From Kineosporiaceae bacterium (lineage in GTDB: Bacteria > Actinomycetota > Actinomycetes > Actinomycetales > Kineosporiaceae), in the NCBI GenBank assembly GCA_016794595.1, contig JAEUJN010000008.1:248001-312000 (forward strand): a stretch of DNA of 64,000 nucleotides, read 5' to 3'. The notes beneath the pieces were generated by a model. That model saw only the letters and a program-made list of their open reading frames with translations, did no database searches and was not told the origin of the DNA. A program made the position numbers and the translations under genes. Below, piece after piece: positions 18,400 through 44,849 of the stretch (positions within the stretch are counted from its first letter, which is position 1; every line of letters begins with the position of its first letter).

Positions 18400-18524
18400 C
18401 CGACCACTGACCGACCTCATACCCCCACCGGGCAACACGTGTGACGGCCAGCGGGCACCTCTGCCGGCCACCCCGCGGCACCCACTGACGCTGTCAGGCC
18501 GAGTGCCCACCTCCGCGTTCGGCG

Positions 18525-18662
18525 CTGCGGAGCCGCTCGCCATGCTCCGCAGCCGCCAGCCGCGGCGTCCGCTTCATGGCTTTTCGGGTGGTCCTGCCGC
18601 GTCCCCTGCGGAGCACGAGTCGTCCGCCACGGAGCATGAGCAGGTTGGGTGGGGGGGTGGGG
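18525..18662. repeat. Palindromic intergenic repeat, copy A
   Basis: In the gap between convergent mpa and an ABC permease gene. It has a local hairpin CTGCGGAGC / GCTCCGCAG (18525-18552) and two right-hand units: CTGCGGAGCACGAG (18606-18619) and ACGGAGCATGAGCAGGTTGG (18629-18648). The second is almost identical to the right arm of copies B and C. A G-rich tail follows (GGG-T-GGGGGGG-T-GGGG). The left arm is degenerate. No gene is seen in 18400-18662. Confidence 0.65.
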
Positions 18663-40573: not shown

Positions 40574-41032
40574 GTGGAGGAGATGGATCGGCAGCTGGTG
40601 CACCTGCTCTCCCGGGACGGGCGGATGAGCTTCACCGACCTCGGCAGGGCCACCGGACTGTCGACGTCCGCCGTCCACCAGCGGGTGCGCCGGCTGGAAC
40701 AGCGAGGAGTGATCCGTGGCTACACCATCCTGGTCGACCCGGAGGCGCTCGGCCTGCCGTTGACCGCCTTCGTGTCCGTCACCCCGCTCGATCCGGCCGC
40801 ACCGGACGACGTCCCGGACCGGCTGGCCACGCTGCCCGAGATCGAGGCCTGCCATTCGGTGGCCGGCGCCGACAACTACATCCTCAAGGTGCGGGTGGCG
40901 ACCCCGGGCAGTCTGGAGGGCCTGCTCACCCGCATCCGGGCGGCGGCCGGGGTGGCCACCAAGACCACCGTGGTGCTGTCCACCCCCTTCGAGGGACGCC
41001 CGATCCCCACCGGCGAGGGCGAGAACCCCTGA
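40574..41032 (+). CDS. Lrp/AsnC-family transcription regulator
   Basis: 152 aa. N-terminal helix-turn-helix (MDRQLVHLLSRDGRMSFTDLGRATGLSTSAVHQRVRRLEQRGVI, positions 4-47) and a C-terminal RAM ligand-binding domain with EIEACHSVAGADNYILKVRV. Such proteins sense amino acids. It lies 2.5 kb from the kam genes, so regulation of lysine catabolism is a reasonable but untested guess. Confidence 0.92.
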   Translation: MEEMDRQLVHLLSRDGRMSFTDLGRATGLSTSAVHQRVRRLEQRGVIRGYTILVDPEALGLPLTAFVSVTPLDPAAPDDVPDRLATLPEIEACHSVAGADNYILKVRVATPGSLEGLLTRIRAAAGVATKTTVVLSTPFEGRPIPTGEGENP

Positions 41033-41062
41033 CCACCCCCACCTTCGCCCTTCGCCGGGCCG

Positions 41063-41172
41063 CACCAACCTGCTCATGCTCCGCAGGTGACGCGTCATCT
41101 CGGCGATGTGCCTGACTTGTGCGGTGGCCACGGAGTATGGCGGGCCGGCTGCGGAGCATGAGCAGGTTGGTG
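41063..41172. repeat. Palindromic intergenic repeat, copy B (best copy)
   Basis: Perfect 24-bp arms at 41063-41086 and 41149-41172, each with the core CTCATGCTCC / GGAGCATGAG and outer ACCAACC / GGTTGGT. The 62-nt centre holds a partial internal unit (ACGGAGTATGG). It lies between the Lrp gene and the membrane-protein gene. Confidence 0.85.
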
Positions 41173-41193
41173 GGCTCAAGGCTGTTGCCGTGA

Positions 41194-43615: not shown

Positions 43616-44710
43616 ATGGTGGACGTCGGGACCCTGGTCGCAGGTGTCAGCTCCCCGGTGGGACTGCACCGGGTGCTGGAGCCGCTCGGCGTCCTGCCGC
43701 AGGCCGCCTGGCGCCTGGACGCCTCGCCCGCACTGTTCGCCGACGAGGTCCGGGTCAGGGTCGAACGGCTCAACCTGGACGCCGCGAGCTTCAGACAGCT
43801 GTGGGATCGCCACGGGGGGGACGGCGAGGCCGTCCGGGCCGAGGTCGCCCAGATCATCAGCACCCGGGGGAAGATGCACAACCCGGTCACCGGCTCCGGA
43901 GGGATGCTCGTCGGCACGGTGGAGGAGGTCGGGCCGGACAGCCGGCTGGGCCTGGCGCCCGGGGACCGGATCGCCACCCTGGTCTCCCTCACCTTGACCC
44001 CGTTGGCGATCACCGACGGTCTGGCCGCCTGGGACGGGCGTGGCGAACAGGTGCCGTGCACCGGGCACGCGATCCTGTTCGGCCGCTCGATCGCGGCCCA
44101 CCTGCCCGCGGACCTGCCTGCGGAACTCGCGCTGGCGGTGATGGACGTGTGCGGCGCACCGGCCCTCACCCACCGGGTGGTGGCCCGCTACGTCGCCCAG
44201 GGGCGCCCCCCGGTGGTGGCCGTGATCGGGGGGGCCGGCAAGAGCGGCTCCCTCGCCCTGGCCGCCGCCCGCCGAGCCGGGGCGGCACGCACCATCGGCG
44301 TGGTCCCCCTTCCCTCCGAGCGGGAACAACTGACCCGCGCCGAGCTGGCCGACGCCGTCGCGCTCGCCGACGCCAGGGATCCCGTCGCCCTGGCGGGAGC
44401 GGTGGCCGCGGCCGGAGGGCCGGCGGACATCACGATCGTCTGTGTCGACGTCCCCGGGTGCGAGCACGGGGCGATCCTGGCCACCGCCGACCTGGGCACG
44501 GTGATCTTCTTCTCGATGGCCACCTCGTTCGCCACCGCGGCGCTGGGGGCCGAGGGACTGGCGGCCGACGTCCAGCTGCTGATCGGCAACGGCTACGCGG
44601 CCGGCCACGCTGATTTCGCACTCGACGTCCTGCGCTCCTCACCCGGCGCCCGGGGGCTGTTCGAGGCCCGCCTGGCCAGCCACGCCGGCGCAGTCCACCC
44701 CCCGCGATGA
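43616..44710 (+). CDS. kdd: L-erythro-3,5-diaminohexanoate dehydrogenase
   Basis: 364 aa. Oxidative deamination of 3,5-diaminohexanoate to 3-keto-5-aminohexanoate with NAD(P). Recognised by length, the medium-chain-dehydrogenase-like fold with VAVIGGAGKSGSLALAAARRAG (nucleotide loop) and its kam neighbours; segments GKMHNPVTGSGGML and LLIGNGYAAGHADFAL are typical. ATG 43616 follows GAGGAGGAG; the longer upstream frame is rejected. Confidence 0.88.
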   Translation: MVDVGTLVAGVSSPVGLHRVLEPLGVLPQAAWRLDASPALFADEVRVRVERLNLDAASFRQLWDRHGGDGEAVRAEVAQIISTRGKMHNPVTGSGGMLVGTVEEVGPDSRLGLAPGDRIATLVSLTLTPLAITDGLAAWDGRGEQVPCTGHAILFGRSIAAHLPADLPAELALAVMDVCGAPALTHRVVARYVAQGRPPVVAVIGGAGKSGSLALAAARRAGAARTIGVVPLPSEREQLTRAELADAVALADARDPVALAGAVAAAGGPADITIVCVDVPGCEHGAILATADLGTVIFFSMATSFATAALGAEGLAADVQLLIGNGYAAGHADFALDVLRSSPGARGLFEARLASHAGAVHPPR

Positions 44711-44721
44711 CCACCCCTGAA

Positions 44722-44849
44722 CCCCACCCGAACCCGCTCATGCTCCCCAGCCGACCCGTCGTGCTCCCCGGCCGACGGCTATCGCAACCCCTGCGGAGCA
44801 TGGGCGTGACACCTGCGGAGCATGAGCGGGTTGGGGTGGGGTGTGGGGG
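44722..44849. repeat. Palindromic intergenic repeat, copy C, with G4 motif
   Basis: Arms of 29 bp at 44722-44750 and 44813-44841 match at 27 positions and contain the same core as copy B. Two further internal units (GTGCTCCCCGG near 44761, CCTGCGGAGCATGGG near 44790) make four core-like units in total. The right end runs into GGG-TT-GGGG-T-GGGG-TGT-GGGGG (44828-44849), a canonical G-quadruplex pattern. Lies between convergent kdd and plsC. Confidence 0.8.

Follow-up and report, generated by a model that had tools for sequence, protein, structure and literature searches.

REPINs are described as inverted REP doublets mobilised by a RAYT (PMC8049555), enterobacterial BIMEs as intergenic arrays of REPs (PMC2817692), and CGTC-tagged REPs as palindromic repeats that lack a dedicated transposase and often occur as dimers (PMC3733652). 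A repeat family that resembles these systems is present in a Kineosporiaceae bacterium, where it was followed from a stretch of 64,000 nucleotides (the window; GenBank assembly GCA_016794595.1, contig JAEUJN010000008.1, positions 248,001 to 312,000). A preliminary description of the window knew of no published name for the repeat, and none was found in the literature searched, nor any description of it. The favoured reading, to which a probability of about one half is assigned, is that these are lineage-specific, non-autonomous intergenic repeats of the REPIN/BIME-like type, turned into a kept gene-end element that serves as a protein-based bidirectional barrier.

The preliminary description had reported a family of three copies, one of them with perfect 24-bp arms around a 62-nt centre. 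Those arms were recovered at exact coordinates in copy B (41061..41174, no strand assigned, 90-bp class), as perfect 24-nt inverted repeats at 41063-41086 and 41149-41172 with the 62-nt centre between them. Copies A (18524..18652, 101-bp class) and C (44725..44838, 90-bp class), likewise unstranded, have the CTCATGCTCC/GGAGCATGAG core and the GGTTGGG flank in common with copy B. The covariance model R1, built from 17 copies including copies B and C of the window, scores these two training sequences at 102.3 and 100.1 bits, respectively, and copy A, which was not in the training set, at 40.7 bits; the E-values are 4e-8 for copy A and 5e-24 for copy C. The family proved real and much larger than three, as about 74 copies are present. 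The search for further copies, set beforehand as a test, gave at least 75 places in the organism's own genome (G000; 4.95 Mb, 123 contigs) in the covariance-model census, or at least 74 distinct ones, since contig C54 contributes two matches that mirror each other and represent a single copy. The exact 12-mer CGGAGCATGAGC occurs at no fewer than 83 places in the genome among the matches listed, mainly as inverted pairs about 80 nt apart, and the palindromic pattern CTCATGCTCC-N56..86-GGAGCATGAG has 44 matches in the genome vs 0 for the reversed control. If only the window is considered, the 10-nt core, with one mismatch allowed, does not exceed chance (9 matches vs 5.2 expected). A rescan of 543 kb, mainly around known copies, yielded two-peaked scores, with copies at 24 bits or more, everything else at 16.1 bits or less, and no added copy above the latter value; because of this gap, few decayed copies exist in the rescanned 543 kb.

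Several features of the assemblies touch on these numbers. Contig C54 (53476 bases) mirrors itself about position ~26738, with a long perfect central inverted repeat and mirror-image element positions; the symmetry is probably an assembly artefact and its two element copies one. Contigs often end at or near an element (e.g., C88, C53, C222, C250, and C94 in the related genome G007; C12, C13, and C82 in G000). Assemblies thus seem to break at strong palindromes or at an IS110 element, so that copy numbers are lower bounds.

The element measures about 110 bases and consists of a palindromic pair of outer sites of about 24 bp with at least one inner site of 19 bp. The outer sites are inverted (CCAACCYGCTCATGCTCCGCAGGTGAC; consensus CCAACC[CT]G-CTCATGCTCC[GC]C[AG]G[GC][TC]GAC), and T5, T8, and C10 are invariant across 150 of them. 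The inner site, which the preliminary description had not reported, lacks the AACC part and lies exactly 21 nt inward in 71 of 76 cases, against a chance rate of 0.0003. Every one of the 72 analysable copies has at least one inner site (one in 52 copies, two in 20), and left and right inner sites tend toward mutual exclusion (p 0.006). The window copies illustrate this variation. In copy B, the outer left site CTCATGCTCCGCAGGTGAC (41073..41091, + strand, PWM 32.7) faces an outer right site (41144..41162, - strand, PWM 24.9) with a weak inner right site 21 nt inward of it (41123..41141, - strand, PWM 9.8). Copy A combines an outer left site (18539..18557, + strand, PWM 17.4) with inner and outer right sites (18601..18619 and 18622..18640, both - strand, PWM 24.3 and 24.9), while copy C carries four sites: outer left (44737..44755, + strand, PWM 28.4), inner left (44758..44776, + strand, PWM 17.8), inner right, here 22 nt in (44786..44804, - strand, PWM 17.0), and outer right (44808..44826, - strand, PWM 29.2). 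A lone half element, with two direct sites 21 nt apart and no inverted partner, was also seen in the genome (L110 8036-8085), near the end of a neighbouring gene.

The outer span falls into two classes that differ by one helical turn: 62 copies measure 89-92 bp and 13 measure 100-102 bp, and no copy has an intermediate value. In the longer class, a GATGATC[GT]GACA-like sequence often fills the empty inner slot; the centres are otherwise diverse between copies. Although the centres have otherwise diverged, they lack indels, which points to a constraint on spacing; the two classes in the own genome could also stem from two founder lineages rather than from a live constraint. No GTAG or CGTC end tag is present, as the outer ends read AACC[CT]G, and at the inner end of the arm GTC is conserved, with the preceding first C in only 64 of 144 arms.

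Among 13 genomes of the family, only the own genome and three members of a sister genus, g5 (G004, G007, and G009), carry the repeat, and scanning 248 genomes of the order for the exact core revealed no further carriers. Across 84,980 species, the core pattern gave six lone matches in unrelated organisms, and one viral match was also found; all were taken as chance. Beside the g5 variant (CCGCTCATGCTCGCGNNNNGTACCG...) lies another type of palindrome (CAGGCACC...GGTGCCTG, span 65-66). The sister genus has its own span of 72 in 53 of 57 copies, corresponding to 70 bp on the own-genome scale, i.e., about two and about three helical turns below the two own-genome classes (1.94 turns below the 90-bp class). 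One G007 copy has a span of 83 bp, about one turn above 72.

The position of the copies relative to genes was derived with a home-made codon-model gene caller trained against shadow frames. As the preliminary description had stated, copies A and C occupy convergent gaps and copy B follows an Lrp gene: copy A lies between an mpa-like proteasomal ATPase gene (+ strand, ends 18399) and a macB-like MacB/FtsX gene (- strand, ends 18663), copy B lies behind an Lrp/AsnC gene ending at 41032, and copy C lies between genes ending at 44710 and 44890, with an acyltransferase gene beyond. The presence of a Pup-proteasome ATPase gene and the high G+C content would suit an actinobacterium. The classification of positions that it had called for gave 33 convergent, 31 tandem, five divergent (two being the same C54 copy), five in-gene, and one edge placement, so that nearly all copies are intergenic rather than mainly within genes, and the remaining in-gene cases probably include wrong gene calls (e.g., L110 7017-8042). 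No tRNA genes were found near the divergent copies. Compared with element-free gaps of at least 60 nt, convergent gaps are enriched (OR 6.8, p 1e-10) and divergent ones depleted (p 3e-5), an enrichment whose size is inflated, as most sampled regions were picked for holding elements, and whose direction within the sample is not affected by this choice. The median distance between the stop codon and the nearest outer site is 19 nt; it is mostly 5-51 nt and does not exceed 51 nt in 62 of 64 cases. In tandem gaps, 23 of 31 copies lie nearer the stop codon upstream than the start codon that follows (p 0.011). Among convergent gaps, none of the 32 with an element contains another hairpin, whereas 13 of the 47 lacking an element do (p 0.001), the element-bearing gaps having less residual sequence in which a further hairpin could lie; it is as if elements and other hairpins were interchangeable in convergent gaps.

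A 21-bp spacing of sites and a fixed step of one helical turn are what a protein bound to one face of the helix needs, and the conservation pattern as a whole suggests a protein on double-stranded DNA rather than an RNA hairpin alone. As a multimer, the putative protein would sit on one face of the DNA at these sites, and the resulting complex would constitute a barrier or insulator that works in both directions at the ends of genes, acting either as a roadblock terminator or as a supercoil anchor between converging transcription units. An RNA hairpin formed by the outer arms could assist this barrier, while new copies would arise rarely, through an enzyme other than a RAYT or through host-driven duplication. 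Such a two-way barrier at gene ends, formed by a protein on double-stranded DNA, is the best-supported mechanism, with the RNA hairpin as its main rival. Its most specific form can be put forward only tentatively: a dedicated multimeric protein, in a so far undescribed protein-DNA system, would occupy the phased three- or four-site palindrome at gene ends genome-wide, as a bidirectional transcription roadblock or supercoil insulator, on an array that is under selection and copied without a RAYT.

Function at the RNA level, whereby a long hairpin encoded by both strands would end transcription or shield the mRNA 3' end and the DNA sites would have no protein of their own, seems rather doubtful, even though it accounts for a number of observations. 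The predicted RNA fold of copy B reaches -87.2 kcal/mol (z = -8.6), the sites are located just behind stop codons in gaps where other hairpins are scarce, and the flank past the stop is C-rich, as in rut sites. The stem is not followed by a T-tract; the flank there is GGTTGGGG-like. The preliminary suggestion of a transcription terminator fits the position and the paucity of other hairpins in the same gaps, whereas the absent T-tract and a conservation that points to binding of double-stranded DNA speak against it. Within the own genome, the variable positions of the arms pair little more often than in shuffled arms, with a mild excess at a few positions only, and the inner site, usually one-sided, would stay unpaired in a hairpin. 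Loop lengths that fall into classes one helical turn apart also speak against a purely RNA-level role. Paired changes between the arms do occur at several positions in g5, which favours a hairpin; they stem partly from the mixture of two palindrome types. No match above the gathering score was found between the window and the Rfam RNA families.

The third explanation is a plain REP or REPIN parasite, spread by a transposase that has since been lost and positioned wherever insertion is harmless. Its inverted doublet with a diverse spacer is indeed REPIN-like, and g5 shows array growth and an apparent local copy. In G007, the two palindrome types alternate over five elements (L151 6854-7419), whereas the orthologous G004 gap contains one pair (L174 8765-8960), a difference that is BIME-like tandem growth. 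Another G007 copy (L169 6549-6642) has no counterpart in the orthologous gap of G004. Its centre is nearly identical to that of a copy lying 0.6 kb away, and the resemblance stops at the element; it reads as a recent local copy, although it may instead have been lost in G004, and the empty site is not clean. The g5 copies that could be compared are mostly common to orthologous sites between species, and in the sampled regions none of the own-genome copies was located at a gene that also has a g5 copy, so positions are constant within a genus and seem to change from one genus to the other. The preliminary label of a mobile or selected REP-like extragenic repeat is supported by the roughly 74 copies, their 3'-end and convergent bias, and vertical retention with occasional local copying in g5. 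Its suggestion of a RAYT-like substrate found no support: PF01797 (Y1_Tnp, which covers RAYTs) had no match in the draft assemblies of the four carriers G000, G004, G007, and G009, with positive controls matched, and was present only in two non-carriers. Genes beside clustered copies have no enzyme in common. Together with the missing GTAG/CGTC tag, the near absence of decayed copies, and the strict spacing and inner site that were kept although the centres diverged, the lack of a Y1/RAYT in any carrier makes simple parasitism unlikely. A MITE, in which the repeat would represent DDE transposon ends that carry subterminal transposase sites, would explain the terminal inverted repeats and the multiple subterminal sites in unequal numbers at the two ends, but is highly improbable, as 1792 tests over different offsets and lengths revealed no target-site duplication (best z 2.75).

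The repeat further appears to be targeted specifically by an IS110-family (bridge-RNA type) element; REPs are known to serve as targets for elements of this kind (PMC1525189). Three copies of this element were found, one whole (L110 4110-5640) and two at contig ends (L061 3970-4086 and L062 1-117), and all three adjoin the repeat at the same base (GGAGCATGAG^TTGCCCTG). Within its non-coding RNA region, the words GCATGAG and ACCTGCTC correspond to either side of the outer arm, as would be possible for a bridge-RNA target loop; the resemblance is suggestive only, since the left flank of the sole complete insertion departs from the consensus.

Other palindromes occur in the same genome. A second, compact family has the form CTCGTGATCATGCACTTTCGA-(~10 nt)-TCGAAAGTGCATGATCACGAG (e.g., L219 16730-16891, L214 2746-2791, and L213 14821-14884), with 132 exact 15-mers in G000 and one stray match among 37 relatives. 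A possible third family, TGCGGTCACTTCCGA, has loops of 23-45 nt (L217 7974, L214 13393, and L226 885).

Among the described systems, the family is best placed with the REPIN/BIME-like repeats as a variant without a RAYT, since it resembles them in build, position, and evolution. As in REPs and REPINs, it is a high-copy extragenic palindrome made of inverted units around a diverse spacer, located at 3' ends and in convergent gaps and rare in divergent ones; by the two tests of end tag and RAYT it is not a member of that group, because it has neither. Its two inverted sites of ~25 nt, its tens of intergenic copies, and its vertical retention with rare duplication match the REPINs of PMC8049555. 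Unlike these, it resides in carriers without a detectable RAYT, lacks the GTAG tag, and has single sites with no obvious hairpin of their own, an extra inner site at 21 bp, and helically stepped spacing. The resemblance to enterobacterial BIMEs (PMC2817692) lies in the alternation of two palindrome types and in tandem arrays that vary between relatives, both confined to the sister genus (e.g., L151); unlike BIMEs, the sequence is unrelated and own-genome copies are mostly single. CGTC-tagged REPs likewise lack a dedicated transposase and often form dimers, but here CGTC is not a conserved end tag and the element is larger; the text of PMC3733652 on these repeats makes no mention of Actinobacteria. 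Bidirectional intrinsic terminators also occupy convergent gaps and form a hairpin on both strands; unlike them, the repeat has no T-tract and is a repeated family with fixed site geometry. The question of what REPs and REPINs do for their hosts is entangled with their RAYT partner. Here, a REPIN-like population persists in carriers of two genera, each with its own site variant, in which no Y1 transposase is detectable, and its site geometry predicts a complex on double-stranded DNA, which makes the question of function directly testable.
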